Shown here piece by piece: positions 532-17,210 of a stretch of 64,000 nucleotides of DNA (positions are counted from its first letter, which is position 1; each line of letters opens with the position of its first letter). Source of the stretch: Actinomycetales bacterium (GTDB taxonomy: Bacteria; Actinomycetota; Actinomycetes; S36-B12); assembly GCA_018970765.1 (NCBI GenBank), contig JAGWVT010000001.1, forward strand, positions 1 to 64,000. The letters run 5' to 3'. The notes beneath the pieces were generated by a model that was not told the origin of the DNA, searched no databases, and worked only from the letters and a program-made list of their open reading frames with translations. A program made the translations under genes and the position numbers.

Positions 532-554
532 CACACGAGAAGAGGAGTTCAGCG

Positions 555-1451: not shown

Positions 1452-1461
1452 GTCCAAGTTG

Positions 1462-2076
1462 ATGGCGGACAACTGGCGACATATCGACCCGGCAACACAT
1501 GGCGGGGTCTACTCCATTCTCAGTGCGCTTGTGGCGCCTCGCCCAATTGCCTGGGTGGCGACGATCGCACCGGATGGTACTGACAACATCGCACCACACT
1601 CGTTCTATCAACTCGTCAGCACAGCGCCGCCCGTTGTCATGGTGAGCTCGATCGGCGAGAAGGACACCGTGCGAAATATCCGCGCCACCGGGGAGTTCAC
1701 GGTGTGTGGTGCGCCAGCAGCACGTATGGCTGAGGTCAACGATTCGGCCGTCGAATTCCCGTACGGTGTCAGCGAATTCGACCGAGTGGGCCTGACTCGC
1801 CTTCCTGGTACGCGGATCTCGGTACCCCGTGCTGCTGAGGCCCCCTATGCGATGGAGTGTCACTTGATTGAGATTCGCCCAGTCGGCAACGGGCTCATGA
1901 TTCTTGGGGAGGTCGTGCACATCGTTGTAGACGAACGTGCGTTTGACGGAGATCAGATACAGGGCGAACGCCTGGACCTTGCCTCTCGGTTAGGTGCCAG
2001 TGACTGGGGCCATGGCTGCAGTGTCGTGAGCGTTCCCCGAGTCAGCCTCGAGGAGTTCAACGCGCGTGCTCAGTAG
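1462..2076 (+). CDS. Flavin reductase-like domain protein
   Basis: A 204-residue protein of the flavin-reductase-like, FMN-binding split-barrel family. The N-terminal motif is SALVAPRPIAWVATIAPDG, followed by NIAPHSFYQLVSTAPPVVMVS and, later, a conserved EFPYGVSEFDRVGLT segment. Members bind FMN; some reduce free flavin for a partner monooxygenase, others act on their own substrate. ATG 1462 lies 10 bases after the FAH stop; TTG 1459 is an alternative. The open frame extends further upstream, but only into the FAH coding region. Its partner, if any, is not a flavin monooxygenase in this window; the neighbouring oxygenase is a P450. Confidence 0.85.
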   Translation: MADNWRHIDPATHGGVYSILSALVAPRPIAWVATIAPDGTDNIAPHSFYQLVSTAPPVVMVSSIGEKDTVRNIRATGEFTVCGAPAARMAEVNDSAVEFPYGVSEFDRVGLTRLPGTRISVPRAAEAPYAMECHLIEIRPVGNGLMILGEVVHIVVDERAFDGDQIQGERLDLASRLGASDWGHGCSVVSVPRVSLEEFNARAQ

Positions 2077-2088
2077 GCTCCCGGTTTC

Positions 2089-3318: not shown

Positions 3319-4526
3319 CCAAGGAACCAACCTCACATGCGGACAGTGAGAAGCAGCGCGTCGGCTGGTTTGAGCTCTTCTATGACCTTGTGCTGGTGGC
3401 AACCATCAATCGAGCCGCACAGGTTTTCGGTGATAGTCCAACTTGGTCTACCGGGGGAATCATCGGTGCCGGATTGGCGATCATCCTGACGCTTTGGTTG
3501 GCAACTACCGTCAACCTAGCCTGTTTTGGGGCACGTGCAGGACTGCGGCAGGTCTTGGTTGTCATCCAAATGGTCGCCATCGTTATCGCGGCCTTGGCGA
3601 CGGGCTTAGGAACTGGATTACCGACCCTGATGGGTTTCGCGGCGCTCACCGTGGCGTTCGGCTCCATCACGGCGCTGTACTGGGCGTCCTCGGTGGGAGA
3701 ACCTCAGGTGGATCAGGAGGCCCGCGCCGTTGTGCTCGCCTCGGGCGCAGCAACAGGGGTCTTCGCCGCAGGTGCCCTTCTGGTCTGGCTGCAGGTCCCC
3801 AATGTCGCCGTTTGGGAAGGCGTGTGTATTGCCACGGGCGTTGTCCTGCTCGCGTGGCCGCTTCTGGGCCGATCGCTCAGCGGCCTTGTTGCCGTGGGCA
3901 GGTTGAGTACCGAGCATTTGCAGGAGCGTATGGGTCAGTTGGTGCTCATCGTGCTCGGCGAATCGCTCATCTATCTTGTGAAGAATCTGAGCGGCCTACC
4001 GCAAATTCCGCATCTACCGCTCCTCGTGCTGATCATCGTCGTGATCTTTGCCATCTGGCGCATCTACTTCACCACGATCTTCCCGGCTGGGCTCCCGTCA
4101 AAGCCAACGACAATCAGAACCTGGCTACTCGTACATGTGCTCCTTATCTTTGGAGCGATCTCGATGGCGGCCGCGTTGTCCTCAATCGCGGTCATTGGAT
4201 TCTCCGATCCACTTCCGGCGAATGCGGATTCCTGGACGGTCCTTCCAATGCTCTATGTGATGGGCGCGATGTTGATCTTGGCGATCACTCAGCGGAATAG
4301 ATTTGGATCTGATTCCGCAGGTGCCTTGTTTGGACGCCGCATTGTGCTGATTCATGCGGTGGCATTCGCCTGCATCCTCCTGCTGTGGCCACTCGGCGCC
4401 ATTGAGCCATTAACCGATTCACGATGGCCACTTGCGCTCGGCGGTCTCGTGATGATCGGTGATGCCCTTGCTTCGTGGGTGGTCCTCAGGTCGTCTCGGG
4501 AAGTGCAGACTCGGCTAGTGCTCTGA
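3315..4526 (+). CDS. ltrA: Low temperature requirement protein A (LtrA) family membrane protein
   Basis: A 403-residue, very hydrophobic protein with roughly ten or more membrane segments. The LtrA signature is near the N terminus (GWFELFYDLVLVATI), and VLIVLGESLIYLV occurs in the middle, matching the conserved GE(S/A) motif of the family. The molecular function of LtrA proteins is not established; the name comes from a Listeria cold-growth mutant. GTG 3315 overlaps the P450 stop as GTGA, indicating translational coupling. The 3' end overlaps the convergent lipoprotein gene by 41 bases. Confidence 0.85.
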   Translation: MTKEPTSHADSEKQRVGWFELFYDLVLVATINRAAQVFGDSPTWSTGGIIGAGLAIILTLWLATTVNLACFGARAGLRQVLVVIQMVAIVIAALATGLGTGLPTLMGFAALTVAFGSITALYWASSVGEPQVDQEARAVVLASGAATGVFAAGALLVWLQVPNVAVWEGVCIATGVVLLAWPLLGRSLSGLVAVGRLSTEHLQERMGQLVLIVLGESLIYLVKNLSGLPQIPHLPLLVLIIVVIFAIWRIYFTTIFPAGLPSKPTTIRTWLLVHVLLIFGAISMAAALSSIAVIGFSDPLPANADSWTVLPMLYVMGAMLILAITQRNRFGSDSAGALFGRRIVLIHAVAFACILLLWPLGAIEPLTDSRWPLALGGLVMIGDALASWVVLRSSREVQTRLVL

Positions 4527-5202
4527 TCTTCTCAGCGAGAGTGTTGACCTCGAGCATCTGCTGCTGCGCCGCTGCGTGCGCATCTGCGAGACCGCAGAAG
4601 GCAATGGTGTCGAAGAGATATTGATCCAAAGGTCCGACTTCGGCCGAGCGTCCATTGCTGACCTGATCCAGGGCCACCTGTGAAACGTTAAGCATCGTGG
4701 TGTTGTAGTCCGTCAGATTGTCCGCATCGACCCAGCGTGCTCGCTCCCGCAATGCCTGAGCTGCGGTAGTGCTCTTACCCACCTTCTTGGCGGCCTTTCG
4801 ATATTTCTTCGCAGCCTTGTTGGTCGCGGCGATCGTGTTCTCATAGTCGAAGCAGCCGTCATCCATGATGATTTCCGACCCGGCAATGATCGTGAGGTAG
4901 GCCGGACCCACCGGCTCAAGCGTTGGCTCGAGCGTGGGTTCTGGTGTCGGAGTCGGCGTGGGCTCGGGTGTTGGAATGGGTGGTGGCGTCGGAGTGGGGG
5001 TCGGCGCAACGCTGGGGACCGCCGCGGGGCTGCTGGGTACCCCTTGGGCGGTACTGGAGGCCGCGGAGGCCGCGGGGGACGCGGCCTGGTCGCTGCCGCA
5101 GCCGCTGAGGGCCAATGGGGCAAGGAGCGCAGTAAGTGCCAGCGGCGCAGCCCCGGCTAGCAGGGCTGTCCCAACGGGACTGATTCTTCGATGTGTTGCC
5201 AT
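4486..5202 (-). CDS. Predicted lipoprotein with Pro/Thr-rich linker
   Basis: A 238-residue secreted protein starting at ATG 5202; two GTG codons just upstream (5208, 5205) could also be used. A signal peptide ends in a lipobox (LALSGC), with the acylated Cys at about residue 35. An Ala/Ser-rich stretch follows, then a PTPTPTP-type linker (about residues 65-105) that would span the cell wall. The C-terminal domain of about 130 residues is predicted helical and contains two Cys (in DDGCFDYEN and IAFCGLADA). I do not recognise that domain. The 3' end overlaps ltrA on the opposite strand. Function unknown. Confidence 0.75.
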   Translation of the reverse strand: MATHRRISPVGTALLAGAAPLALTALLAPLALSGCGSDQAASPAASAASSTAQGVPSSPAAVPSVAPTPTPTPPPIPTPEPTPTPTPEPTLEPTLEPVGPAYLTIIAGSEIIMDDGCFDYENTIAATNKAAKKYRKAAKKVGKSTTAAQALRERARWVDADNLTDYNTTMLNVSQVALDQVSNGRSAEVGPLDQYLFDTIAFCGLADAHAAAQQQMLEVNTLAEKIRALAESALPETT

Positions 5203-5365
5203 CACCACTCGCGTTTCTCGAGAACCCTCGTTATTGATGTGCCTGACGGGTCACAAGTGTTTTTTGGGAATGTAGCGTCCTTTGGGGCATTTGGGATGGA
5301 AGCGCGCCGTGTCAGGGATACGGGGCTCGTCGGGCGTTGCGTCACGTCTGCCAGGCTTGGCGACT

Positions 5366-6178
5366 ATGACCCCCCTCGGACAGCAGGTTCGTCTTGCCCG
5401 GATTTTCGCCCGCGGTCACCTTTTTGGTCTGGCGGTGGACCACTTCGTCAGCTACGGCCAGGCAACCCAGGGTGGTTTGGCCGACCTCCCGCGGGCCCTG
5501 TCGCGCAGCATGGTTGGCGGTCCGGACTCGGTGACGATGACCGCGGGCACCGCCAAGCACTGCTGGGCGCCCTACGCCGGCACGGCCGCACTGATCGTGG
5601 AAGGCGCCTCATTCACCCCCGACGACCGAGTGAGCGAGATCATTGCCACGGTTGGTGATGCCGTCCGCCTTGGTGCGGACGCGATCGCCATGGCCGTGCC
5701 GGTGCGCGGGCCGACCGAAGGGCGCTACCTACGCTGGCTCAGCGACACTGTCCGAGAGGCCGCCCCTTACGGCCTACCGGTCATCGCACATATCTACCCT
5801 CGCGACTACACCGCGGAGCCGCGAATCGTCTTCCATGCTGAGCAGATCGCCTGGGCCGTCCGGTGCGGTATCGAGTGCGGGGTTGACGTCATCAAGGTCG
5901 GCTACCCAGGGGACAGGGCCGCGTTCGCCGAGATCGTTCGAGGTTGCCCGGCCCCGATCGTTATTGCCGGCGGCCCGCAGACCGCAACATTGCAGGAGGC
6001 CCTGCAGACGGTCTTCGATGCCATGTCCGCAGGTGCGCGGGGTGCTGTCGTTGGACGCAATATTTGGGGTGCTGACGACGTCGAGGGTGCTTCACGTGCA
6101 TTCGCAGATGTCATCCATGAAGGCCTGGATCCGCGGGCCGCGCTGCAACAAGCGGGCCAGCCGTACCGCGCGCCGTGA
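5366..6178 (+). CDS. Class I aldolase, DhnA/LsrF/DeoC-like TIM barrel
   Basis: A 270-residue TIM barrel of the DhnA/LsrF aldolase group. Visible signatures are LAVDH (22-26), the Schiff-base strand DVIKVGYPGD with likely catalytic Lys177, the phosphate-binding IAGGP (200-204) and GAVVGRNIW. Family members include archaeal-type fructose-bisphosphate aldolase, the amino-dideoxy-heptulosonate synthase, and LsrF. It overlaps the PfkB kinase downstream by GTGA, so the likely order is kinase product cleaved by aldolase. ATG 5366 begins the conserved region; the frame is open back to 5282, but the extra N-terminal residues look non-conserved. I see no clear ribosome site. Substrate unknown. Confidence 0.82.
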   Translation: MTPLGQQVRLARIFARGHLFGLAVDHFVSYGQATQGGLADLPRALSRSMVGGPDSVTMTAGTAKHCWAPYAGTAALIVEGASFTPDDRVSEIIATVGDAVRLGADAIAMAVPVRGPTEGRYLRWLSDTVREAAPYGLPVIAHIYPRDYTAEPRIVFHAEQIAWAVRCGIECGVDVIKVGYPGDRAAFAEIVRGCPAPIVIAGGPQTATLQEALQTVFDAMSAGARGAVVGRNIWGADDVEGASRAFADVIHEGLDPRAALQQAGQPYRAP

Positions 6179-7140
6179 TCATCGGCATAGGCGCGATCGC
6201 CGTCGATACCGTCCTCGTCACTGCTGGTCATTGGAACGAGGGCAAGGGACGGATTCTGCAGCGTCGCCTACGCATGGGTGGCAACGTTCGAAACGCGATG
6301 GTGGCTGCCGCCACGCTTGGCGGGCAGGTGGCATACCTGGGCTGCCTGTCGGCCGATGGGCAGTGGGCAGGGGTGGCATCGGACCTAGTTGACCACGGCA
6401 TTGATCTCAGCTTCGTCGAGTGGAACGACGGTGCTGCTCCGATTCAATCCACGATCGTCGTCACGGCGGATGCGGAGCGATTCATCGCCTTTGATGATTC
6501 CGTGCTGCAGACCACGCCCCTGCCATCCGCTGGCACGGTGCAGCACGCACTTGAGCTGGCGACCGTGCTGCTCGTCGATGCCAGCACAGCGCCACCAGGC
6601 ACGCTGGCGATTTTGGACGAGGCAAGGTCGCGCCGCATCCCCATCGTGGTCGATGCCGAGCGGTTCCTGTCCGGTGGCGCCGTTGTGGAGCAGATTCTGT
6701 CTCGAGCTGACCACGTCATTTTGCCCAGGCACTTCGCGCACAGCCTGACCTCGGCGTCCCTCGAAATCAGTGACCTTCCGACGCGTGTGCACGCTGCCTT
6801 GGGTACGCAGCCAGGCGTTGTCGTTGTTGTCACGGATGGAACCAATGGCGTCGTCGTGTGTACCCAGGCTGAAGGTTCGCCTGTCGTCGAACATCTGTCG
6901 GCATTCGAGATTCAGGCCATTGACACAGTCGGCTGCGGTGATGTGTTCCATGGTGCCTACGCCGTGGCACTCGATGGGAAGCAACAACTGAGGGATCGGT
7001 TGCGCTTCGCCTCGGCAGCGGCCGCATCGGTAGCCGCGTTGACTCAGGATCGCGATCGTGTACCGGATCTCCAAGTGATGTCGATCCTGTTGGGCGGACC
7101 CGGTCAGGGTTCCGTCGACCCCTCGGGTGCAAGAACGTAG
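6175..7140 (+). CDS. PfkB-family carbohydrate kinase
   Basis: A 321-residue ribokinase-fold kinase. The N-terminal signature RMGGNVRNAMVAAATLGG (33-50) and the C-terminal signature DTVGCGDVFHGAYA are present, the latter from residue 250 with Asp256 as likely catalytic base. The family phosphorylates sugars, nucleosides and related alcohols using ATP. GTG 6175 overlaps the aldolase stop by four bases. The pairing with a class I aldolase suggests phosphorylation of a keto-sugar (acid) before aldol cleavage, but the sequence does not identify the substrate. The last 37 bases are antisense to the GNAT gene. Confidence 0.88.
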   Translation: MIIGIGAIAVDTVLVTAGHWNEGKGRILQRRLRMGGNVRNAMVAAATLGGQVAYLGCLSADGQWAGVASDLVDHGIDLSFVEWNDGAAPIQSTIVVTADAERFIAFDDSVLQTTPLPSAGTVQHALELATVLLVDASTAPPGTLAILDEARSRRIPIVVDAERFLSGGAVVEQILSRADHVILPRHFAHSLTSASLEISDLPTRVHAALGTQPGVVVVVTDGTNGVVVCTQAEGSPVVEHLSAFEIQAIDTVGCGDVFHGAYAVALDGKQQLRDRLRFASAAAASVAALTQDRDRVPDLQVMSILLGGPGQGSVDPSGART

Positions 7141-7913
7141 TTGCCACGGTCATCAACACCAAGCACCTGCTCGTGGTTCGTGAGCGCCTTTTGAAACTCT
7201 CGCCGGACGCGCATGCGCCACTCCAAGGCCTCACTTGGATTCGCCTGTCGTAACCCAACGATGTCTTCGGGAATCTCGATGATCTGGCAGGTCGACCCCA
7301 GGTCAGCAACGGTTGTGTTGATGGCTGGCAGCGGGTGGATGGCGGCGCGAACTGCCCGGGCTGAAGCCACCGGCCACCAGGCGAGCAGGCGATCCGTCTC
7401 GTCCCCGTGGTTCAGTTCGTCATCCATGGCTCCATAGAAATTGACCTCGTAGCGTGCCACCTCCACGCCAAGATTGCGCAGGTTGAAGACCGCGTTGCGG
7501 CGCACCAGCGGATCAAATGTCCAGGCGATGACGGGTAGGTGTTGCTGCAGTGCCCAGAGGCGCTGGTGCTGCTTGAGGGCGGTGCCGATGCCACGATCGC
7601 GGGCCCCTGATACGACGCCGGCCATATGCGAGTGCAGCACCTCGATCCATCCGGTCGTTGCATCCCGATGTCTGCCCGGTAGGGCCACCGCGGCACCTAC
7701 GGGCTCGCCGTCAGCCAGAGCGATGCTTGCGTAGCCACCGGAGTAGGTGATCGCCTTCAGCAGGTTCGGTTGCAGTTGAGTACTTCCGGACACCGCGGGC
7801 CAGACGGCGTCGCAAACCTCGCGGACCAGTTGAAGTTCGGACGGGGATTGCGCTAGGTGTACTTCGACACCGGAGCGCTCGCAGGCTCGGGCGACAGCTT
7901 GTTCGGCAGACAC
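7104..7913 (-). CDS. GNAT-superfamily acetyltransferase-like protein (COG3375-like)
   Basis: A protein of about 269 residues resembling the large GNAT-like family typified by COG3375: VGAAVALPG, then ATTGWIEVLHSHMAGV and the acetyl-CoA loop SGARDRGIGTALK, followed by ITWTFDPLVRRN-like IAWTFDPLVRRN and FNLRNLGV. Function is unknown in this group. Start choice: the frame is open to GTG 7982, but GTG 7913 has a GGAG six bases upstream. It also leaves the repeat-bearing region 7940-7985 as non-coding control DNA. The 3' end is convergent with and overlaps the PfkB gene. Confidence 0.68.
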   Translation of the reverse strand: MSAEQAVARACERSGVEVHLAQSPSELQLVREVCDAVWPAVSGSTQLQPNLLKAITYSGGYASIALADGEPVGAAVALPGRHRDATTGWIEVLHSHMAGVVSGARDRGIGTALKQHQRLWALQQHLPVIAWTFDPLVRRNAVFNLRNLGVEVARYEVNFYGAMDDELNHGDETDRLLAWWPVASARAVRAAIHPLPAINTTVADLGSTCQIIEIPEDIVGLRQANPSEALEWRMRVRREFQKALTNHEQVLGVDDRGNYVLAPEGSTEP

Positions 7914-7939
7914 GATCAACTCCGGATCGACTCGCACGT

Positions 7940-7985
7940 GTACACGGTAGGCGATGCGCGGGTACACCGTGATCGGGTACACCGT
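7940..7985. repeat. Three GTACACSGT repeats upstream of divergent GNAT and M20 genes
   Basis: GTACACGGT (7940-7948) and two copies of GTACACCGT (7962-7970 and 7977-7985). The last two lie in identical 12-base direct repeats GGTACACCGTGA at 7961-7972 and 7976-7987, spaced 15 bases start to start. They sit just upstream of the M20 peptidase start at 8010 and upstream of the preferred GNAT start. Repeats of this kind can be regulator-binding sites. If the GNAT protein instead starts at 7982, they would merely encode a repeated TVYP. Confidence 0.5.
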
Positions 7986-8009
7986 GAGGCGATACAGCAG
8001 GATGTCAGC

Positions 8010-9101
8010 ATGATCAGTACCGACAGCCTGGTGGCTGATATTCGCTTACTCGTCGAAACTGAATCACCAACCGAATCGGTTGCGCACTGTCGGGCAGCCG
8101 CGGAATTGACGCAGGAAATTTGTACGAAGTGGTTGGGTGAGCCGGCGCGCATCGAAGAGCACGAAGGCCGACCGATCCTGCGCTGGGGTCAAGCGCAACC
8201 CCGGGTTCTCATCCTGGGCCACCTCGATACCGTGTGGCCCGTCGGAACACTGCAGCGACTGCCGTGGTCCTGCGATGGTGAGCGGATGCGCGGGCCCGGT
8301 GTCTTCGACATGAAAGCCGGGGTGGTGACCGCCATCGCGGCGCTCAGCCTGGTGCCAGATCGTTCGTCGATCGGCCTGATGTTCACCACAGATGAAGAGA
8401 CCGGCTCGTGGGCGTCACGTGCGGCCATTCATCAGGCCATTGCTGAGGCGCAGGCCGTGCTGGTCTTCGAGCCATCATTGGACGGCAAACTCAAGTCGGC
8501 GCGCAAAGGCACTTCCTGGTACCGACTGCGATTCACCGGCCGCGCCGCGCATGCCGGCTTGGATCCCGAACGTGGGGTGAATGCCCTGCTGATGGCTGCG
8601 CATTGCGCTACGGAAATTGCCGGATTCGCAGACCGTAGTCAGGGCAGCACGGTCACACCGACCATGCTTAGTGCTGGTACGACGGCGAATACTGTGCCCG
8701 CGCAGGCAGAACTCGTCGTGGACGTGCGCGCCTGGTCGTCAACCGAGCAGGAGCGCATTGATCAGCAGGTGCGTGCCTGCGCCCTCGTCGCGGCCGGTGA
8801 GTTCGGTGGCCTGGAAATTCTCGGCGGCATCGATCGCCCAGCCATGGCGGAGCAGGCGTCGGCGTCGCTGCTGCCCCTCGTGCGGGCAGCGGCTGAGAGC
8901 CTGGGGCTTCCGGTGCCAGGCCACTGTGCGGTTGGCGGCGCCAGTGACGGCAACCTGACGGCTGCCGCCGGAGTCCCCACCCTTGATGGGCTGGGACCGC
9001 TAGGGGACGGTGCCCACGCCGATCACGAGTGGGTGAGTGTGGCCGATCTAGTTCCCCGAACGGAACTTGTCGCGTGTGTGCTCGGCGATTTGGGCTGCTA
9101 A
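8010..9101 (+). CDS. M20-family metallopeptidase (carboxypeptidase G2-like)
   Basis: A 363-residue dinuclear zinc hydrolase. Predicted ligands and catalytic residues sit in the usual places: HLDT (His71, Asp73), GVFDMKAGV (bridging Asp100), TTDEETGS (Glu129/Glu130), FEPS (Glu154) and a late GDGAHADHEWV His. The dimerisation-domain motif GRAAHAGLDPERGVNA is present. The closest pattern I recognise is the glutamate carboxypeptidase/CPG2 group, which removes C-terminal Glu from folates or peptides; related members deacylate amino acids. ATG 8010 was chosen because homology begins there; the frame is open to 7857 through the divergent regulatory region. Confidence 0.85.
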   Translation: MISTDSLVADIRLLVETESPTESVAHCRAAAELTQEICTKWLGEPARIEEHEGRPILRWGQAQPRVLILGHLDTVWPVGTLQRLPWSCDGERMRGPGVFDMKAGVVTAIAALSLVPDRSSIGLMFTTDEETGSWASRAAIHQAIAEAQAVLVFEPSLDGKLKSARKGTSWYRLRFTGRAAHAGLDPERGVNALLMAAHCATEIAGFADRSQGSTVTPTMLSAGTTANTVPAQAELVVDVRAWSSTEQERIDQQVRACALVAAGEFGGLEILGGIDRPAMAEQASASLLPLVRAAAESLGLPVPGHCAVGGASDGNLTAAAGVPTLDGLGPLGDGAHADHEWVSVADLVPRTELVACVLGDLGC

Positions 9102-9119
9102 GGCGGCAGCTGGGTACGA

Positions 9120-9136
9120 ATTGAATTCGATTCAAT
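9120..9136. promoter_or_regulatory. Perfect inverted repeat and possible promoter before the lectin-like gene
   Basis: ATTGAAT-TCG-ATTCAAT is a perfect palindrome with 7-base arms at 9120-9136. Its left arm contains TTGAAT (9121-9126), which lies 18 bases before TACCAT (9145-9150), giving a plausible -35/-10 pair for the gene starting at 9209. A palindrome over a -35 element is what a repressor operator looks like. The AT-rich arms stand out against the surrounding GC-rich DNA. No protein is known to bind here. Confidence 0.5.
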
Positions 9137-9208
9137 CCCTGGGTTACCATGGGCGTTCTCACAAAGACGCGTGGCTCTCGGTGTGCACCGGAGCTAAGGG
9201 AGTCAGGC

Positions 9209-11926
9209 ATGAAGCGAACGCTTGGGCGGGTGTTCGTGGGAGTTGGCACAGTCACCGTCGCCTTGGTCATCGCAGGCTTGGCGTTGCCGCAGTGCCAGCC
9301 GCAGGCTGATGCGGTCGGCGCCACGCCTGGTTACCCGGGCATCACCGGGCCTTCGTCAGCAGCCTCTGGTGGTTTGAATACCGCGATCACGATCGGCAAT
9401 TTCACGCTCACCGATGCATCGGCCGGTGGTTCGGCCTGCAATATCGGAACGGTGCGTGCGGTGCTGTCGACCGACTTGGGCACGATCACTGCTACCGCCC
9501 CTTCAGGTGGCTCAGTATCGGGGTCGGGGACTGCGACGGTGACGCTCACCGGTTCGGTTGCCAACGTCGAGGCTTCCCTGGATGCCGCGACCCTCAGTAG
9601 CGCCTCAGCCGGGACGGCGACAGTCACCACGACCTTCCGGCCTAACAACACCTTCACCTCGGGCTCCGATAGTTACGTATTCGGCAACACCACGGGCCAC
9701 TACTACCGGGTGTACAACAACAGCACTTCAGTGGTGTGGTCGACCATGCGCACGAATGCCAATTCCACGTCGTTTTGCGGTGCGGGGGGCTATCTCACGA
9801 CTATCACCACTGCTGACGAGCGCACCAGCATCCAGAGTCTGTCCAGTTATGCCGATGCGGCCTATTGGCTGGGTGCGGTGCGCTCCTCCAGTTCGAGCAC
9901 ACCCAACGGCAGCGCCTGTACGTCGAGTTCCTGTCTGTGGTACTGGGACCCGGGTAGCAATGCGCCGTCGAGCGATCAGGCTGCTCGGATGAGTTACGGC
10001 GACCCGGGAAACCCACCGGGAACCAACGTCGGTACGCCATGGCATTCGGGTGAACCGAACAACTCCGGTCCCTATCTGGCCCTGTCGCCGGCCAGCTCGG
10101 TCTACAACTGGGACGACGTAGCAAGCGGCATCACTTTGCAGTATGGGTTGATCGAGTTCGGCAACAACACCTCTTACACGGTTGCTTCAGTAACGTCGAC
10201 CGTGCTCGTCGCCCAGTGCACCGCGACCACCACGAACTACACCGCGGACGGCACTAACGGGGTTAATGGCGCCCGCTATCGGGTGGTGAGCTTCACCAGC
10301 GGGGCAAGAACGGCCTGCGCATCCACCTGGTCGGCACCCACGGGTATTACGTCAGTAGACGTGCTCGTGGTCGGGGGTGGCGGTGGCGGCGGATCGGATG
10401 CCGGCGGTGGCGGTGGCGGAGGCGGTGTGCGCGAGCGGGCCTCGGTCACCGTCAGTGGCGGGTCGAGTTATGCCGTGACGGTCGGCGCTGGTGGTAGCGC
10501 AGCTCGATGTCCGCGTAATGCCGACTACAACAACTCGGATAACTGCGACCCCCGATCGCTGGCCACCTACGACGGCGCAGGTGCCTCTGGCGGTTCCAGT
10601 TCCTTCGACTCGATCACCTCGACCGGCGGTGGCGGCGGCGGATCCAAATTCGTCAGTGCCTACGCATCCAATGCACCCGGTGATGGTGTCGCGGGGGCAT
10701 CCGGTGGTGGTGGTGGTCACCCGACCAGCCAGCCCGGTGGTGCCGGGAGTTATGCGACGGACGGTAATGCTGAGACGCTCGGCAATGCCGGTGGAACCTC
10801 CGACAGTGGCAACGACTTCGCCGCGGGTGGTGGAGGTGCCGGTGGTGCTGGTTCCAACGGCACTGCCAGTGGTCCCGGGGCCGGTGGTGCCGGGGCCACT
10901 TCGGTTCTCACCGGTGCTTCGGTCACCTACGGTGCCGGCGGTGCCGGTGGCCGACACAGCACCGGCAGCACGGCCACCGCATCCAGCGGTGGTGGCAACG
11001 GTGCCGGCCGAACCTCGGCCGCAGCCGCTGGCACCAACGGACGCGGGGGTGGTGGCGGAGGCGGCGGCAATGTTGGTGCAGGATTCGGCACCGGCGGTGA
11101 TGGCGGTTCCGGTGTCGTCATCCTGCGGTATCGCATCGACATTAGCTCCACGACAACCGACCAGGACACGTCAACCGCGTCGACGGTGGACGTGGCGTTC
11201 GGCAAGGTGGGCACGGCCTTCTCGCAGGCGCTGACCTTTAGTGGAGGCCTCGGTCCAACGTTCTCGTACGCAGTCGTGAGCGGTTCGCTCCCGGCTGGAC
11301 TGGGCCTGGATGGTGCGACGGGTCGCACGCTGACGATCTCGGGAACGCCAACTGTCGGAGGGATTTCGACCGTCACCATCCGGGCAACGGATGCTGATGC
11401 CGGAAACATCCCCACGGATCAACAGGTGACGATCGCGATCACCGACCTGGTGATGCCTTCGCTGCTGCTCGCTGACCCACGGGCGACCTCGTTGACCACG
11501 CCAGGTCCCAGCACGCTTGCTGGCGGTGCAAACATGGTGACCTGCGTCTACTCATCGAACGCGTCTGGGGCCGAACTCAACACCGCGACCGTACGCACCG
11601 ACACCGCGAGCCTGGGTTCCACGGAGACATCCCGCGCGGTCGGTGGTGCCACGGTCACCCTCAGCAACGACAACGGTTACGGCGTGTTCAAGGCGCACGG
11701 CAGTACCGCGGCAAATCTTCAGTCGCTGCTCGGTGGCGCCAATGGCCTACGCATCACGAAATCGACCGGTCAGGCGTCAGGCTTCTATTTCACGGTCAAG
11801 GTGATTCCCTACTGGTCGTCGGTGCCGGCCTGCACGGACAGCAATGCCGGGACCATGTCCCAGGTTGTCCAAGTCAAGCCGCTGGGCATCAAACGCACGG
11901 TGACCACGCCGGTCACGGTGGAGTAG
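9209..11926 (+). CDS. Large secreted protein: C-type lectin domain, glycine-rich region, putative Ig-like domain
   Basis: A 905-residue exported protein. ATG 9209 has an AAGGGA-type ribosome site and begins a signal peptide (MKRTLGRVF, hydrophobic core VALVIAGLAL). Residues of about 155-320 read as a C-type lectin domain, with GHYYRVY at the start, a GEPNNSG calcium/sugar motif near residue 281 and YNWDD near 300. Residues of about 387-635 are extremely Gly/Ala/Ser-rich, with runs such as GGGGGGG. A He_PIG-like Ig domain follows (about 664-743; SGSLPAGLGLDGATGRTLTISGTP). The C-terminal 150 residues are unassigned. No LPXTG or membrane anchor is seen at the end. Probably a surface or extracellular adhesin-like protein. 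Confidence 0.82.
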   Translation: MKRTLGRVFVGVGTVTVALVIAGLALPQCQPQADAVGATPGYPGITGPSSAASGGLNTAITIGNFTLTDASAGGSACNIGTVRAVLSTDLGTITATAPSGGSVSGSGTATVTLTGSVANVEASLDAATLSSASAGTATVTTTFRPNNTFTSGSDSYVFGNTTGHYYRVYNNSTSVVWSTMRTNANSTSFCGAGGYLTTITTADERTSIQSLSSYADAAYWLGAVRSSSSSTPNGSACTSSSCLWYWDPGSNAPSSDQAARMSYGDPGNPPGTNVGTPWHSGEPNNSGPYLALSPASSVYNWDDVASGITLQYGLIEFGNNTSYTVASVTSTVLVAQCTATTTNYTADGTNGVNGARYRVVSFTSGARTACASTWSAPTGITSVDVLVVGGGGGGGSDAGGGGGGGGVRERASVTVSGGSSYAVTVGAGGSAARCPRNADYNNSDNCDPRSLATYDGAGASGGSSSFDSITSTGGGGGGSKFVSAYASNAPGDGVAGASGGGGGHPTSQPGGAGSYATDGNAETLGNAGGTSDSGNDFAAGGGGAGGAGSNGTASGPGAGGAGATSVLTGASVTYGAGGAGGRHSTGSTATASSGGGNGAGRTSAAAAGTNGRGGGGGGGGNVGAGFGTGGDGGSGVVILRYRIDISSTTTDQDTSTASTVDVAFGKVGTAFSQALTFSGGLGPTFSYAVVSGSLPAGLGLDGATGRTLTISGTPTVGGISTVTIRATDADAGNIPTDQQVTIAITDLVMPSLLLADPRATSLTTPGPSTLAGGANMVTCVYSSNASGAELNTATVRTDTASLGSTETSRAVGGATVTLSNDNGYGVFKAHGSTAANLQSLLGGANGLRITKSTGQASGFYFTVKVIPYWSSVPACTDSNAGTMSQVVQVKPLGIKRTVTTPVTVE

Positions 11927-11937
11927 CCGGTTGCCGT

Positions 11938-11953
11938 CGCGAATCGGGTCGCG
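11938..11953 (+). terminator. Possible hairpin after the lectin-like gene
   Basis: CGCGA (11938-11942), six-base loop, TCGCG (11949-11953), a few bases after the stop codon of the lectin-like gene. There is no T tract, and five base pairs is short, so this is only a weak candidate terminator. Confidence 0.25.
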
Positions 11954-11977
11954 GTGTCACTCCGCCTAGTCGTCCGC

Positions 11978-11983
11978 AACAAT
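11978..11983 (+). promoter_or_regulatory. Possible -10 box giving a leaderless mRNA (PPOX-like gene)
   Basis: AACAAT ends exactly six bases before ATG 11990. That is the spacing seen at several other starts in this window, but the hexamer matches TANNNT only at the A and final T, so it is weaker than the others. Confidence 0.4.
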
Positions 11984-11989
11984 GCCTCT

Positions 11990-12406
11990 ATGACTAAATC
12001 AGTGACCCTCGCCGACGGCGTACGCGCCGTCCTTGATGCCCCGGAGTTCGCCACGGTGGCAACCCTGCTACCGGATGGATCACCGCATCTGTCGGTGGTC
12101 TGGGTGGAGCGCGATGGTGACGACGTGCTGTTCTCCACCGTCGTCGACCGTCGCAAGCACCGAAACCTGGTCGCGGATCCGCGCGTCAGCTTGCTGGTCT
12201 ATCCGAAGGACAACCCGTACTCCTACGTCGAGATCCGGGGGATCGTGACGATGACCGAAGAAGGTGGCCGCGAACTCATTGACCGGCTGGCGGGTAAGTA
12301 CCGCGGTCTCGATCGGTATCCCTATGACGATGGCACCGACAACGTCCGCGTTGTGATCCGCGTTCGGCCAACAAAGGTCGTCGCCCTCGACCTATCCAGC
12401 CGATGA
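11990..12406 (+). CDS. Pyridoxamine 5'-phosphate oxidase-fold protein (PPOX class, possibly F420-dependent)
   Basis: A 138-residue split-barrel protein. Its start (FATVATLLPDGSPHLSVVWV), the middle (LLVYPKDNPYSYVEIRG) and the late YPYDDGTDNVRVVIRVRP match the actinobacterial PPOX-class family, many of whose members use coenzyme F420 or bind FMN or heme. Cofactor and substrate cannot be read from the sequence. ATG 11990 is preferred because it lies six bases after a -10-like hexamer and starts the conserved region; an in-frame GTG at 11954 is the alternative. It is followed closely by the CurA-like reductase, probably in one transcript. Confidence 0.82.
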   Translation: MTKSVTLADGVRAVLDAPEFATVATLLPDGSPHLSVVWVERDGDDVLFSTVVDRRKHRNLVADPRVSLLVYPKDNPYSYVEIRGIVTMTEEGGRELIDRLAGKYRGLDRYPYDDGTDNVRVVIRVRPTKVVALDLSSR

Positions 12407-12416
12407 GAGCGTGTCA

Positions 12417-13460
12417 ATGACGCAGCCGCTGGTCAATCACGCAGTCGTTCTCGCAGAACGACCACGCGGACTTCCCAATTCGGCCACCTGGCGCCTAGAG
12501 GAGCGCCCCATCCCCGCTGTGCGTGCTGGTCAAGTGCTCATTGCAGTTCGGGAGTGTTCCCTCGACCCGGCCATGCGCGGCTGGTTGGACGATCGTCCCT
12601 CCTACCTGCCGCCCGTGGGTATCGGTGAGGTCATGCGGGCCATGGTGGTTGGCGAGGTCATCGAATCGCAGGTGGACGGACTCACCATTGGTACCTGGGT
12701 GCTGGGAGCCCTTGGCGTGCAGGAGTATGCGGTGGCCCGCCCAAGCGGACTCACCATTGTCGATCCGCAACTTGGTACCCCGACGGAGTACCTGGGCATC
12801 CTTGGGACGACGGGGTTGACCGCCTACTTCGGACTGTTCGAGCATGGCCGACCCAGGGCGGGCGACACTGTCGTTGTTTCTGCTGCTGCCGGCGGTGTGG
12901 GCTCGGTGGTGGGCCAGTTGGCGCGAATCTCAGGCACCCGCGTTGTTGGCATCGCCGGTGGATCGCAGAAGTGTGCGTATCTGATGGACGAACTCGGGTT
13001 CGATGCAGCCATCGACTATCGCAGTGGCGATGTTCGGCGCGCACTGCGTAAAGCATGCCCGGCTGGTATCGACGTGTACTTCGACAATGTCGGCGGCGAG
13101 ATTCTTGACGATGCCCTTGCGAATCTGGCCATGGGCGCTCGAGTGGTCGTCTGTGGTGCCATTTCGCAGTACAACGTTGACCCGGACGGCGCCGATCCCG
13201 CTCAGCGCACAGTGAGTGGACCCGGAAACTATTTGAGCCTGCTCGTGCGCCGAGGGACGATGTCAGGCTTCCTGGTATTCGACTACGCCGATCAATACGC
13301 CACTGCCCGGCAGCGGCTGTCTGGTTGGGTGAAGTCCGGAGCGATCGTGGCGAGGCAGACGGTTGTCAGTGGTGGTGTCCAGGATTTCCCCGAAACCCTG
13401 CTAGCACTGTTCAGTGGTGAGAACGTGGGCAAACTGACGTTGCGCCTGGAATCGGGCTAG
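12417..13460 (+). CDS. NADP-dependent medium-chain oxidoreductase (CurA / prostaglandin-reductase type)
   Basis: A 347-residue zinc-independent MDR protein. The N-terminal RGLPNSATWRLEERPIP and DPAMRGWLDD motifs and the NADPH site SAAAGGVGSVVGQLA are typical of the alkenal/one oxidoreductase group (CurA, PTGR, leukotriene B4 dehydrogenase). YFDNVGGEILDDAL and GAISQYN support the same group. Such enzymes reduce activated C=C bonds of 2-alkenals, enones or nitroalkenes. ATG 12417 has GAGAG upstream, near the stop of the preceding gene; GTG 12411 is possible. The stop shares a CTAG with the convergent gene. Confidence 0.87.
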   Translation: MTQPLVNHAVVLAERPRGLPNSATWRLEERPIPAVRAGQVLIAVRECSLDPAMRGWLDDRPSYLPPVGIGEVMRAMVVGEVIESQVDGLTIGTWVLGALGVQEYAVARPSGLTIVDPQLGTPTEYLGILGTTGLTAYFGLFEHGRPRAGDTVVVSAAAGGVGSVVGQLARISGTRVVGIAGGSQKCAYLMDELGFDAAIDYRSGDVRRALRKACPAGIDVYFDNVGGEILDDALANLAMGARVVVCGAISQYNVDPDGADPAQRTVSGPGNYLSLLVRRGTMSGFLVFDYADQYATARQRLSGWVKSGAIVARQTVVSGGVQDFPETLLALFSGENVGKLTLRLESG

Positions 13461-13924
13461 GACGATTCACCTTTTATTGCCGTAGACATTCGATCCGCAT
13501 AGTCCCAGCTGGTCACCGCAAGGTCCGTCACAGCGATAGCAACTTCATCGGCGATGCGCGAGAGCAGCCACTGGGCCAGTGAACTTTCCCGTTGGATGCT
13601 ATAACGCTCGAGCAAAAGCGGAAGGATCCGCCCGGCCGCTTTAGGTTCGATCTGCGCGCGGCCGTGTCCGCGCACACCGCGATACGGGGGGTGGTCGCCG
13701 GCAATCTCGAAGCCGCAGTAGGGCTCGGTCTGCAGGCGGCGCACGACAAGGGCTTCCCGTTGCGTGCAGCACCACAAAGTGTCTTCTTGCGGGAGGAACC
13801 ACAGTGACTGCACCGTTGGGCCCGGCGTACCGGCGGTGGCAAGTCGAATCGGAATTGTCGCAGTAGACCAGAAGTCACGAATCTGTCCCGGCGTCCATGG
13901 TCCGGAGATCACCGTGAGACTCAC
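13457..13924 (-). CDS. Pyridoxamine 5'-phosphate oxidase family protein
   Basis: A 155-residue FMN-binding split-barrel-type protein, shown by IRLATAGTPGPTVQSLWFLPQEDTLW-like segments (for example SLWFLPQEDTLWCCTQ) and the PPYRGVRGHGRAQIEP core. These are hallmarks of the general stress/PNPOx-like family. Substrate unknown. GTG 13924 overlaps the stop of the alditol-oxidase-like gene as GTGA, so the two are translationally coupled. The 3' end meets the CurA-like gene at a shared CTAG. Confidence 0.8.
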   Translation of the reverse strand: MSLTVISGPWTPGQIRDFWSTATIPIRLATAGTPGPTVQSLWFLPQEDTLWCCTQREALVVRRLQTEPYCGFEIAGDHPPYRGVRGHGRAQIEPKAAGRILPLLLERYSIQRESSLAQWLLSRIADEVAIAVTDLAVTSWDYADRMSTAIKGESS

Positions 13925-15198
13925 GTGACTCGGTCCCGCATCGCTGCGCCCATGAGTGCATCGGTCATGGAATTGCTGAACTTGCCCTCCGGATCAAGCT
14001 CGCGCACTCGCTTGGCGAATTGGTCGAAGCGTGGATAGCCGCGGACGATCATCTCCGGGGTAAAGGTAGTGACCTTGCCCCAGTGTGGTCGGGCGCCCAG
14101 GGGGGCCAGGAGTTCATCGATGATCGGTAGCACGTCGTACACCGCATTGGTCTTGTGCCAGGTGAAGTGGATGCCAATCGTTGGTCGTTCGTAATTAGGC
14201 GATAGCCAAAGGTCATCTGCAGCGACGGATCGAATTTCAGTCGCATGCAGGATCGGATGCACGATCGCGCGGATTCCTTCGATCGCCTGAATCGCTTGAC
14301 TGGCCATATCCCGTGGTAGCAGGTACTCGGCCTGGATCTCATCCCCGGAACTTGGCGTGAAGGCCATCTGAAAATGCGGCAGGCGGTCAAACCAGGGACC
14401 CGGTTCCCCCAGCTGCGCAGTGCAGTTGATGGGGTCGTGATCAGGGAGTGGGTGCGCCGGCGTGGTTCGTTGCCGTGCGCCGAGCCAGGAAGTTTGGGGC
14501 CATGAGGACGTGACATCACACCGCTGCTTTAACCACACCTGGCACCGCTCGGATTCATCCCAGGTGGTGAACACACTGACGGAGGTTGCTGCGCCGAAGA
14601 TCTCATCAAGGCTGTCGACTAGACGTGCGCGCGGTAGGTCGTCGAACACCACCTGGGCGACCTCGTAGAAACGCTCCGTTGCCAGGCGCAGGTGAGTTAC
14701 GGCACCCAGGCACCCGAGTGCGACGACCTCCGCCGCAAGTTCTGCGCCGGCGATTTCAACGAGGCGACCATCAGCGCGGATCAACCGCATTCCGGTGACC
14801 GCGGTTGCCAGATTGCCGAGGCGATCTCCCGAACCATGTGTGCCGGTTGCGCATGCGCCTGCCACGCTGATGTGCGGTAGGGACGCCAGGTTGTGCAGGG
14901 CGCGGCCGTGCTCCATGAGAACCGGGGCAAGATCGCCGTAGGTCACGGCGGCACTCACCCAGACTTCGTTCGAATCAGCCTCAATCTCGATCTCTCTCGG
15001 CAGACCTGCGAGGCTCAGCTGGACCTGTGATGTGTCGGCAAGTGGGCTGAATGAGTGCGCGGTGCCTATGGGGCGGATCCTTGAGGTGTCGGCAATGACC
15101 GCCTGCGCTTCGGCGAGTGATTGTGGCCGAATGCATCGGACGGCAGAGAACTGCTGATTACCGGCCCAGTTGTGTCTGATGGGGTCTGTCACCGTCAT
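13921..15198 (-). CDS. FAD-linked oxidase of the alditol oxidase / aldonolactone oxidase family
   Basis: A 425-residue VAO-fold flavoprotein, close in length to Streptomyces alditol oxidase. The N terminus carries HNWAGN (9-14) and IGTAHSFSP, whose His48 aligns with the residue that holds FAD covalently in AldO-type enzymes. GACATGTHGSG continues the FAD site, and the C-terminal domain has PHWGK and DPEGKFSN. Alditol oxidases convert sugar alcohols to aldoses and H2O2; the closely related lactone oxidases act on aldono-1,4-lactones. ATG 15198 follows TACGCT by exactly six bases, predicting a leaderless transcript. Confidence 0.87.
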   Translation of the reverse strand: MTVTDPIRHNWAGNQQFSAVRCIRPQSLAEAQAVIADTSRIRPIGTAHSFSPLADTSQVQLSLAGLPREIEIEADSNEVWVSAAVTYGDLAPVLMEHGRALHNLASLPHISVAGACATGTHGSGDRLGNLATAVTGMRLIRADGRLVEIAGAELAAEVVALGCLGAVTHLRLATERFYEVAQVVFDDLPRARLVDSLDEIFGAATSVSVFTTWDESERCQVWLKQRCDVTSSWPQTSWLGARQRTTPAHPLPDHDPINCTAQLGEPGPWFDRLPHFQMAFTPSSGDEIQAEYLLPRDMASQAIQAIEGIRAIVHPILHATEIRSVAADDLWLSPNYERPTIGIHFTWHKTNAVYDVLPIIDELLAPLGARPHWGKVTTFTPEMIVRGYPRFDQFAKRVRELDPEGKFSNSMTDALMGAAMRDRVT

Positions 15199-15204
15199 GC
15201 AGGC

Positions 15205-15210
15205 AGCGTA
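15205..15210 (-). promoter_or_regulatory. -10 box (TACGCT) for a leaderless alditol-oxidase-like mRNA
   Basis: On the minus strand TACGCT-GCCTGC-ATG places a TANNNT hexamer six bases before the start codon, so transcription would begin at or next to the A of the ATG. No ribosome site is seen before this start. No convincing -35 is visible. Confidence 0.6.
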
Positions 15211-15219
15211 GAAGGCAAC

Positions 15220-15225
15220 TAGGGT
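15220..15225 (+). promoter_or_regulatory. -10 box (TAGGGT) for a leaderless DnaX-like-domain mRNA
   Basis: TAGGGT-TTCGGA-GTG: the hexamer lies six bases before GTG 15232. It is back to back with the opposite -10 at 15205-15210, so two divergent leaderless promoters share a 33-base gap. Confidence 0.6.
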
Positions 15226-15231
15226 TTCGGA

Positions 15232-15561
15232 GTGGCTGGTCCCCCGGATGCCTTGTCTTCATTGCCTGGTGAGCCACTTCATGCACTTCGTGCGCAGTGG
15301 TCCGATGTGTTGATGCTGCTGGAGCGCATCGATCGCGTCGCCTGGATGATCTGGTTCGACGCACGCCTAGCAGCATTCGACGGCCAAGCCCTAGTTCTGG
15401 ATTTCTCTGACCCCGCCAGGCTCGATCCTGGTCAGCGCTACCCGCTTCGCGAAGACGTTCGCGATAGGGATGCACTCGTGCTGGCAATTCAGCAGGTGAC
15501 CGGTTACCAGGTTGAGATTCAGATTCAATCGCAGATGGTTGAGGTTGACGGTGAGCACTAA
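15232..15561 (+). CDS. Small stand-alone protein resembling the C-terminal domain of DNA polymerase III tau (DnaX)
   Basis: A 109-residue protein with the spacing of the actinobacterial DnaX C-terminal domain: ALRAQWSDVLMLLERIDRVAW, then FDGQALVLDFSDPARL, then ALVLAIQQVTGYQVEIQI. In DnaX the equivalent pattern is W-x-x-V-L, a mid-domain Trp, FDG-x-x-L-x-L-x-F, and a final helix-strand ending in a hydrophobic I. No ATPase domain is present. It starts at GTG 15232 under a leaderless promoter and overlaps the exonuclease III start by 11 bases. Role unknown; a DNA repair or replisome accessory function is an inference from the neighbour and the resemblance. Confidence 0.6.
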   Translation: MAGPPDALSSLPGEPLHALRAQWSDVLMLLERIDRVAWMIWFDARLAAFDGQALVLDFSDPARLDPGQRYPLREDVRDRDALVLAIQQVTGYQVEIQIQSQMVEVDGEH

Positions 15562-16381
15562 CGGATCGACGCCTTTTCGTGTCGTGACTGTTAACGTCAA
15601 CGGCATTCGCGCCGCAGCCCGTCGTGGCGGCATGGACTGGTTGCATCAGATCAAGGCCGATGTGATCTGCCTGCAGGAAGTCCGCGCTACCCATGCCCAA
15701 CTCCATGAAGTGCTGAGTCAGTCTCCGCTGAAGTCCTTTCACGTTGTCCACGCGCCCGCGCCACAGTTGGGACGAGCTGGCGTGGCGATTCTGACGAAAG
15801 ATGAACCACTTGACCAGCGGGAGAGGTCCGGCGTTGACGGGCTAGACAACAGTGGTCGCTGGGTCGAAGCCGATGTCGCCTCGCCATGGGGGCCGACCAC
15901 CGTGGCGTCGGTCTATGTCCACACCGGTGAGGCAGACTCCCCGAAGCAACTGGAAAAGTATGCATTCCTTGATGTGATGGACACCCGATTGAAGACATTG
16001 CGCACTCGTGCAACCCGTCGCAAAGGGCACGTAATCGTCTGTGGCGACTTCAATGTGGCGCACCGGGAGATCGATATCAAGAACTGGCGCGGGAATCTCA
16101 CCAGCGCTGGGTTTCTTCCACAGGAGCGTGCCTACTTGGATCGCTGGTTTCAGCGCGACTGGATTGATCTAGGACGCTCACTGGGTGGCCCTGGACCGGG
16201 GCCCTACACCTGGTGGTCCTGGCGTGGTCGCGGGTTCGATACGGACGGCGGGTGGCGGATTGACTACGTTCTGAGCACGGCGGCACTAGCTGAACGTGCG
16301 AAGAATGCCGTCGTGGGCAAGGCACCCACCTACGCGGAGCGTTGGAGTGATCACGCCCCATTGACGGTCACCTTCAACTAA
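15551..16381 (+). CDS. xth: Exodeoxyribonuclease III / AP endonuclease
   Basis: A 276-residue endonuclease/exonuclease/phosphatase-fold enzyme of base excision repair, cutting at abasic sites and degrading DNA from 3' ends. Conserved residues are in place: VVTVNVNGIRAA (metal/phosphate Asn), CLQEVRA (metal Glu), the GRWVEAD region, VCGDFNVAH, WWSWRGRGFDTDGGWRIDYVLS and the final WSDHAPL His. GTG 15551 begins just inside the end of the DnaX-like gene, suggesting coupled translation. The frame is open back to 15512. Confidence 0.92.
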   Translation: MSTNGSTPFRVVTVNVNGIRAAARRGGMDWLHQIKADVICLQEVRATHAQLHEVLSQSPLKSFHVVHAPAPQLGRAGVAILTKDEPLDQRERSGVDGLDNSGRWVEADVASPWGPTTVASVYVHTGEADSPKQLEKYAFLDVMDTRLKTLRTRATRRKGHVIVCGDFNVAHREIDIKNWRGNLTSAGFLPQERAYLDRWFQRDWIDLGRSLGGPGPGPYTWWSWRGRGFDTDGGWRIDYVLSTAALAERAKNAVVGKAPTYAERWSDHAPLTVTFN

Positions 16382-16391
16382 CCACGAATTG

Positions 16392-17210
16392 GTGAGGGTC
16401 TTTTGGGGGCTGTTGCGAGCCTGCCATCCGTTGCCCACCTTGGCGGTCACCTCCTGCGTAAGTCTGCTGGGTTGGCGACTCGGTTGGCAGGGTGATCAAC
16501 TGCTGCTACTTATTGCGGCGGTGTTGACCGGTCAGCTCTCTATCGGTTGGAGTAACGACGCGCACGACGCAGCTGAAGATTCCGCGCTTCAGCGCGTTGA
16601 GAAGCCCGTGGTGGACGGCAGTGTGACATCAACGGCGCTCTGGATTTGTGCGCTGGCGACGGCAGTCGCCTGCATTCCGCTGTCGCTGCTAGCGGCCGGG
16701 CTCGCCGGCGGTCTGTTTCACATTGCAGCAGTTGGCATGGCCTGGTGGTACAACCTGCAATTGTCGCGGACCCGCTGGTCCTGGTTTCCGTACCTGATCG
16801 CCTTCGGCGCGCTGCCCTTCTTCCTCTGCCTGGGCGGTCCGTGGGCAGGCCTGCCGCCGCTGTGGCTGATCATCGCGGCAGCAAGCCTCGGCGTTGGCGC
16901 GCACCTGGCCAATGCCGGTGCCGACATGAGCCGCGACAGTGCGGGGACGGTCGTGAGCCTAGGTCAGCGGGGCACTATCGCTATCGCTCTTCCGTTGCTG
17001 GCCATGGCGAGCCTGGCGGTCGTGGTTGCCATCAGTGCAGCTATGCCGGTCCTTGGTCTGGTCGGCGGTATCGGTGCCCTCGGCTTGGTGGTGTTCGCAG
17101 GTGTGCAGTGTTCGCAACAGCGTTGGCGAACTGGTTTTCGAATCGTCATGGCCCTTGCCGGTTGGTGCGTTCTACTCGTGTTGATCGCGCCGATGAACCT
17201 GCAGGGGTAG
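16392..17210 (+). CDS. UbiA-family prenyltransferase-like membrane protein
   Basis: A 272-residue integral membrane protein with about eight to nine hydrophobic segments. It has the UbiA first Asp motif as SIGWSNDAHD (NDxxD) and GMAWWYNLQLSRTRWSW after the central loops. UbiA enzymes transfer a polyprenyl chain to an acceptor such as a quinone ring, heme or phosphoribose. The second Asp motif is less clear (NAGADMSRD), which fits the shorter, divergent actinobacterial members. Acceptor unknown. GTG 16392 was chosen; TTG 16389 is immediately upstream. It follows xth by 10 bases. Confidence 0.75.
   Translation: MRVFWGLLRACHPLPTLAVTSCVSLLGWRLGWQGDQLLLLIAAVLTGQLSIGWSNDAHDAAEDSALQRVEKPVVDGSVTSTALWICALATAVACIPLSLLAAGLAGGLFHIAAVGMAWWYNLQLSRTRWSWFPYLIAFGALPFFLCLGGPWAGLPPLWLIIAAASLGVGAHLANAGADMSRDSAGTVVSLGQRGTIAIALPLLAMASLAVVVAISAAMPVLGLVGGIGALGLVVFAGVQCSQQRWRTGFRIVMALAGWCVLLVLIAPMNLQG

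Follow-up and report, generated by a model that had tools for sequence, protein, structure and literature searches.

What might a bacterium do with a polypeptide that places a C-type lectin, a long glycine-rich stretch and an Ig-like domain in a single chain? The question is raised by one gene of the window, i.e., the whole stretch of 64,000 nucleotides analysed here, which comes from contig JAGWVT010000001.1 of an Actinomycetales bacterium. The original prediction described the product as a secreted mosaic in which a sugar-binding lectin stands beside glycine-rich low complexity of the silk or PE_PGRS type. The mosaic itself holds: a C terminus without Pfam match follows He_PIG in a chain that also combines a glycine-rich part with a predicted C-type lectin fold. 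The nature of two of its parts, the glycine-rich region and the sugar site of the lectin, has to be seen differently.

The gene and the chain it encodes

The gene runs along the forward strand from an ATG at 9209 to a stop codon ending at 11926, exactly as had been proposed (9209-11926), and its translation comprises 905 aa. Since the purine-rich AAGGGAG, recognised by eye, is found 5' of the ATG at 9209, this start is preferred over a second in-frame ATG upstream, at 9149. The preceding long frame ends at 9101 and the following one starts at 11954, while scans for promoters and terminators found none (0.5 and 1.5 were expected). Nine neighbouring genes were scanned against NCBIfam. Six of them have matches, all to enzyme families (sugar kinase, M20 peptidase type, F420-dependent PPOX oxidoreductase, NADPH reductase, FAD-linked oxidase and P450), and three have none; the sole match above a curated cut-off is that of the PPOX family (TIGR03618, 125.2 bits vs 79.05), an F420-type neighbour that points to the Actinomycetota. 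No virion gene was found among the nine. The GC content of the gene (0.646, and 0.714 at third positions) is near, and slightly higher than, that of the three neighbours measured (0.589–0.643 and 0.641–0.699).

The features of the protein are collected in Table 1. Its first residues display, by eye, the traits of a signal peptide, namely a basic start, a hydrophobic core and an ADA/V junction, and the protein is probably exported via this putative Sec signal, in agreement with the secretion that had been predicted. No membrane anchor can be recognised by eye in the chain, and the protein may therefore be released.

Table 1. Features along the gene and its product, with positions in the window
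Feature	Residues	Positions	Strand	Basis
Probable Sec signal peptide	1-35	9209..9313	+	By eye from the translation; preferred ATG 9209
N-terminal Thr/Ser/Gly-rich region	36-161	9314..9691	+	Position relative to relatives; model pLDDT mostly <60
Predicted C-type lectin domain	162-319	9692..10165	+	Profile, Foldseek, VIA
Glycine-rich domain Gly_rich_2	371-642	10319..11134	+	Pfam, viral relatives, model, shuffles
He_PIG (Ig-like) domain	656-740	11174..11428	+	Pfam on fragment
C-terminal region	748-905	11450..11923	+	No Pfam match; two Cys

In many relatives a cadherin-like region lies directly before the lectin, in the place taken here by the N-terminal region; this is the case in L006, L007, L025, L028 and L029 and in viral proteins. 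Membership of the present region in this cadherin-like group was rejected as not significant: it scored -2.1 bits against the cadherin-like profile after correction for composition, and 257 of 1000 shuffles scored as high against a profile from which it had been left out. The idea that the C terminus is a second copy of the N-terminal region is likewise unsupported (118 of 1000 shuffles as high). The C terminus had been called unassigned, and it stayed so, with no Pfam match at E <=10 and no match in 98 other genomes.

The predicted He_PIG-like domain was recovered as PF05345 in a scan of the fragment, with 33.5 bits and thus above the cut-off of 24; a scan of the whole protein at E <=1 did not report it. 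The 3' part of the gene was also compared with 165 other genomes of the order and matches 24 of them, chiefly across He_PIG, and in G138 a glycine domain leads directly into a He_PIG-type stretch, in the same order as here. Phage and plasmid records match this part of the gene as well: six of 50,697 phage records, each inside residues 662-745 (the He_PIG part), and 18 of 72,556 plasmids, with their best places inside residues 662-761. Another protein, L003 (G000:C155), contains He_PIG three times and ends in a domain of the OmpA family.

The glycine-rich region

Glycine accounts for 89 of the 259 aa between residues 383 and 641, and the original prediction regarded this tract as silk-like low complexity. 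That description is the one to be abandoned. Pfam Gly_rich_2 (PF21722) matches the region with 67.8 bits against a cut-off of 24.3, covering profile positions 5-226 of 226, and Tandem Repeats Finder reports just four arrays, of 15 to 34 bases, between 9000 and 12000. Together with the shuffle control given below, these results led us to reject a silk-like repeat in favour of an ordered Gly_rich_2 domain homologous to viral domains.

The viral relatives were gathered by scanning viral DNA with the last-strand pattern of the domain, which gave at least 120 stretches, 80 of them examined (L073-L152). Regular expressions extracted 48 segments from these 80 loci, one of them empty, and 35 passed a minimum length of 235 aa; alignment A5 used 33 of these, leaving out L127, whose listed start and end are those of L094, and L088, the longest. 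The 33 segments align with the domain at 37–46 % identity, figures that are inflated by the shared glycine. A profile made of viral sequences alone gave the segment from the window 108.3 bits, and among 1000 shuffles of the same composition the highest score was -16.7; without composition correction the corresponding values were 235.6 and 174.5 bits. Within the alignment, 53 columns are at least 80 % glycine and stand in register, and the segments between them vary in length. The longest loop of the present protein measures 31 residues and contains Cys434 and Cys446, the median at this place being 12 (range 4–31). A viral scan made with the protein's own glycine domain matched 600 stretches and confirmed 0, perhaps as a result of low-complexity filtering. 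According to the lectin profile, no open frame of the 80 viral loci L073-L152 contains a lectin.

A model of residues 355-646 (pLDDT 83.5, pTM 0.86) predicts a beta-sandwich that bears a bundle of extended glycine-rich strands. The top two Foldseek matches are the fibre of cyanophage Pam3 (E 3.1e-6) and the tail tip of mycobacteriophage Bxb1 (5.4e-5). Among the matches listed by VIA the same two proteins lead, Pam3 gp24 (PDB 7ypx, 7yfw; PMC9608196) with Z 15.9 over 190 residues at 2.8 Å and Bxb1 (PDB 9d93 chain Q) with Z 15.5 over 190 residues at 3.5 Å, followed by the glycine-rich (TG) ligand-binding domain of ALK/LTK at 7.3–8.9 and then by values of at most 4.6. In a library of viral models there were 231 matches at E <=0.001, and most of the 50 listed are named glycine-rich domain-containing. 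As judged from profiles and model, a single folded domain makes up the glycine-rich region, and its relatives are viral domains of the tail-fibre type.

In the Pam3 study, gp24 is described as a virion fibre that forms trimers, has a helical shaft at its N terminus and comes with a chaperone. Its TNF-like domain carries a glycine-rich lattice of 12 motifs; its glycine stem is conserved, and the variable distal tip is proposed there to choose the receptor (PMC9608196). The predicted domain of the bacterial protein has this Pam3 gp24-type (glycine-rich/TNF-like) fold in its model, with a beta-sandwich and stacked glycine-rich extended strands in common. Unlike that of gp24, it lies mid-chain, between the lectin and the Ig-like domain of a probably exported protein, and the Bxb1 counterpart is likewise a virion part. 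The ALK/LTK domain has a similar arrangement at a Z value near VIA's middling level, in proteins that are animal receptor kinases and show 17–20 % identity over the aligned residues; that Pam3 gp24 resembles C. elegans ALK had been reported before, in the Pam3 study (PMC9608196).

The proposed likeness to the PE_PGRS proteins of mycobacteria stands in part. They are glycine-rich too, and polyglycine-helix sandwiches have been proposed for them (PMC7550000). The present protein has a single Gly_rich_2 domain, the sole family reported by the full-length Pfam scan at E <=1, and no PE domain was reported there. A polyglycine sandwich is also described for gp38 of S16 (PMC6851490); this protein is not named among the fold matches of the glycine domain listed by Foldseek and VIA.

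The lectin domain and its sugar site

A profile built from 14 relatives, and excluding the lectin segment itself, gives this segment 79.3 bits; when residues 150-330 were shuffled 1000 times, the highest score was 12.1 bits. This score is not fully independent, because 11 of the 14 relatives came from searches with the window sequence and three from the Pfam family. Pfam Lectin_C itself gives the fragment 14.3 bits, below the cut-off of 22.6, a value that the relative L007 exceeds with 28.5 bits. Profile A2, made of 14 lectins including the present one (L012 was left out of 15 rows; the rows left out of alignment A4 include L012, L058, L063 and L066), matches animal C-type lectins of known structure; the lowest E values are 2.6e-43 among multi-domain chains and 9.2e-17 where the chain has a single domain.

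The AlphaFold2 model of residues 36-325 has a mean pLDDT of 61.5. Values are 72–93 over fragment residues 121-190 and 79–92 over 251-280, and the model is weak (37–65) over 191-250, where the long loops and the EPN motif lie. All 50 Foldseek matches listed, out of 338, are C-type-lectin-fold proteins by name, and a VIA match reaches Z 14.4 over 128 residues at 2.6 Å. The original prediction had placed a C-type lectin at about 160-320 and had offered as its own refutation the failure of this region to model as such; the region did model as a C-type lectin fold, in line with the profile score. That residues 162-319 take this fold holds on the predicted structure.

The sugar site is another matter. 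EPN, Glu and WND act as calcium ligands in mannose-type C-type lectins. The present domain has EPN at residues 282-284, lacks the Glu that follows it, and has W301-D302-D303 in place of WND, so that EPN is all that it retains of this ligand set. The comparison extended to 56 lectin domains, and one examination of the calcium site dropped rows with <90 aligned positions. EPN occurs in 51 of them, the following acidic pair in 47, WND in 46 and all three in 44, counts made by regular expression that include near-identical viral copies and serve as a guide only. The domain from the window is one of the 12 without the full set, with EPN present and both the acidic pair and WND absent. DCAR2, CEL-I and the mannose receptor share its fold (VIA Z 13.9–14.4) and the EPN motif; in contrast to them, it is without the calcium-site Glu, reads WDD instead of WND, and has a last strand, LIEFG, that by eye lacks Cys.

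Calcium-dependent mannose binding, which the original prediction wished to see tested, is therefore not supported, the Glu being missing and WND altered. Sugar binding via EPN is weakened, since the motif itself is present, as predicted, but in an incomplete calcium site and in a part where the model is unconfident. From its sequence, the lectin probably works without the Ca2+/mannose site of the textbooks; because the ligand site is degenerate and lies in the weakly modelled part, the domain may bind protein, or nothing.

A classical calcium-dependent lectin of the mannose type, held on a flexible silk-like or PE_PGRS-like glycine spacer, would account for the EPN motif, for a WDD that is close to WND and for the C-type lectin fold. 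We regard this reading as improbable: the Glu after EPN is missing, the full motif set found in 44 of 56 domains is not found here, and the supposed spacer is an ordered, homologous domain. About equally doubtful is the idea that the C-type lectin fold serves as a scaffold on which a protein ligand is bound, in the manner of the variable proteins that belong to diversity-generating retroelements. The degenerate sugar site would suit such a scaffold, and C-type lectin folds are known targets of these retroelements (PMC10743442). Against it, no direct repeat of at least 35 bases is found within 4000-17000, and the remaining DNA matches in the whole genome are 56–101 bases long and 69–83 % identical. 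The sole reverse transcriptase match, of 33.1 bits (cut-off 29.6), stands in a 740-residue open frame on another contig, C107 (L230, G000:C107:2659-2994). With no template repeat nearby and a reverse transcriptase on C107 only, the gene was rejected as a retroelement target.

A matrix or ice-binding protein might offer the glycine strands as a rigid flat surface and use the lectin fold for ice or mineral, and type II antifreeze proteins do occur among the lectin-fold matches (Z 13.3–13.7). A further point in its favour concerns PDB 2PNE, the snow-flea antifreeze protein. A PE_PGRS stretch is modelled on this entry in PMC7550000. This reading is very unlikely. The antifreeze Z values are tied with those of many sugar receptors, and the glycine domain is matched best by phage fibres and ALK/LTK, with no antifreeze protein named among the 50 matches listed.

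Occurrence and proposed role

A scan of the order detected Gly_rich_2 in 46 of 146 genomes, which represent 24 of 39 genera; the genome of the window is included with four matches, and a fifth Gly_rich_2 protein, on C82, was missed by the scan and reaches 33.2 bits in Pfam. Pfam Lectin_C occurs in five of the 146, the present genome not being among them. Profile A2 detects lectins in 11 of 166 genomes of the order, four in this genome and one in each of ten others; with a more stringent E value and a spread of 396 genomes from the phylum, 12 match, and the other 11 have at most three each. This genome encodes three further lectin proteins: C71 also contains nine TIG domains (86.0 bits against the lectin profile), C124 contains Fn3 (79.9 bits), and C82 scores 46.7 bits. 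As Pfam Lectin_C finds nothing in them at E <=0.01, they are called lectins by our own profile. The match in the C82 protein (L224, ORF 3-2456 on the minus strand) is partial, covering 107 of 144 positions; this protein also contains Gly_rich_2 and Fn3, and a match to SUEL (galactoside/rhamnose lectin) of 28.8 bits, below the cut-off of 31.4.

By these profile matches, the union of lectin and glycine domain seems to occur twice in the genome, in the window gene and in C82. Our own profiles find both domains in none of the other lectin open frames examined, many loci reaching only about 1500 bases past the match, in a joint scan from which loci L073-L192 were left out. Pfam detects both in the 3151-residue frame of G117, as a distant pair about 4 kb apart. 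The view that a glycine tract is unusual beside a lectin thus proved apt among the open frames examined, with the window protein and C82 found by profiles and G117 by Pfam.

Elsewhere in the genome the glycine domain has other partners: C106 (L052) and C141 (L053) encode subtilase-family (S8) proteins with a C-terminal Gly_rich_2. The Gly_rich_2 protein of C81 (L002) and a lectin/Fn3 protein of G123 (L051, G123:C101) have related C termini, 35 % identical over 180 aa (E 8e-26) and hydrophobic by eye. The two proteins probably share this C terminus as a membrane anchor for different ectodomains, and both kinds of ectodomain therefore seem to use one kind of anchor. The genome is a draft with 5.27 % contamination, and the contigs of C82 and of other paralogues are short. 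In tetranucleotide usage, seven stretches of this genome resemble the window at 0.849–0.944, and three of seven stretches of other genomes score in the same range, at 0.854–0.880; the scores of L222 and L053 are under that of the lowest window chunk of about equal length.

Lectins of this kind were also seen in other settings. In L228 (G151:C175, ORF 304-3075 on the minus strand) the lectin is fused to a DUF5060 protein, the rest of which looks glycoside-hydrolase-like by eye. The contigs of L055, L056, L059, L060 and L061, classed as viral, encode a beta region and a C-type lectin with starts that resemble signal peptides by eye; they may be phage-carried host genes or misassigned contigs.

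Viral relatives of the glycine domain raise the question whether part of a prophage tail fibre was captured here or persists as a remnant. The best solved matches listed for the domain are indeed phage fibre and tail-tip proteins, the window protein has PHROG matches, one of them to a tail fibre assembly family, and in 30 of 47 viral segments the domain ends at most five residues from the end of the open frame. We nevertheless consider such an origin highly improbable. The protein has a probable N-terminal signal peptide (by eye), its neighbours match enzymes wherever they match anything, its GC content is near theirs, and the domain is spread over 46 of 146 genomes of the order, here including two subtilase-family proteins.

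Our preferred explanation, to which we assign a probability of roughly 0.6, is that the gene encodes an exported bacterial adhesin or recognition protein with two putative binding heads. The chain would be exported and would turn outward both its lectin and the ends of the glycine-rich bundle, which may bind glycans or proteins on the surface of other cells, of particles or of the cell's own envelope. He_PIG and the C-terminal parts would provide a spacer and a means of attachment. If the Pam3 fibre is a guide, the specificity of the glycine domain would reside in its loops, one of which is here unusually long and contains Cys.

The individual parts of such a protein, and the likeness between Pam3 and ALK, are already known; what is new is their union in this protein. 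In the open-licence literature we found no paper naming PF21722, and none on a bacterial protein that joins a C-type lectin with this glycine domain. More tentatively, and with clearly less confidence than in the adhesin itself, we suggest that the glycine-rich beta-sandwich of phage fibres and ALK/LTK is a regular recognition module of exported bacterial proteins, coupled here to a lectin in a two-site adhesin. If this were true, the long loops would give the bacterium surfaces of its own for choosing receptors, and phages and their hosts would share one kit of binding heads.

Glycine stretches in bacterial proteins are easily written off as low complexity, and the one described here is, as judged from homology, shuffles and model, an ordered domain also present in viral proteins of the tail-fibre type. 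Should the domain serve recognition in exported bacterial proteins, genes annotated as 'glycine-rich domain' would acquire a role that can be tested, and its coupling to a lectin would provide a compact protein for testing two-site adhesion.
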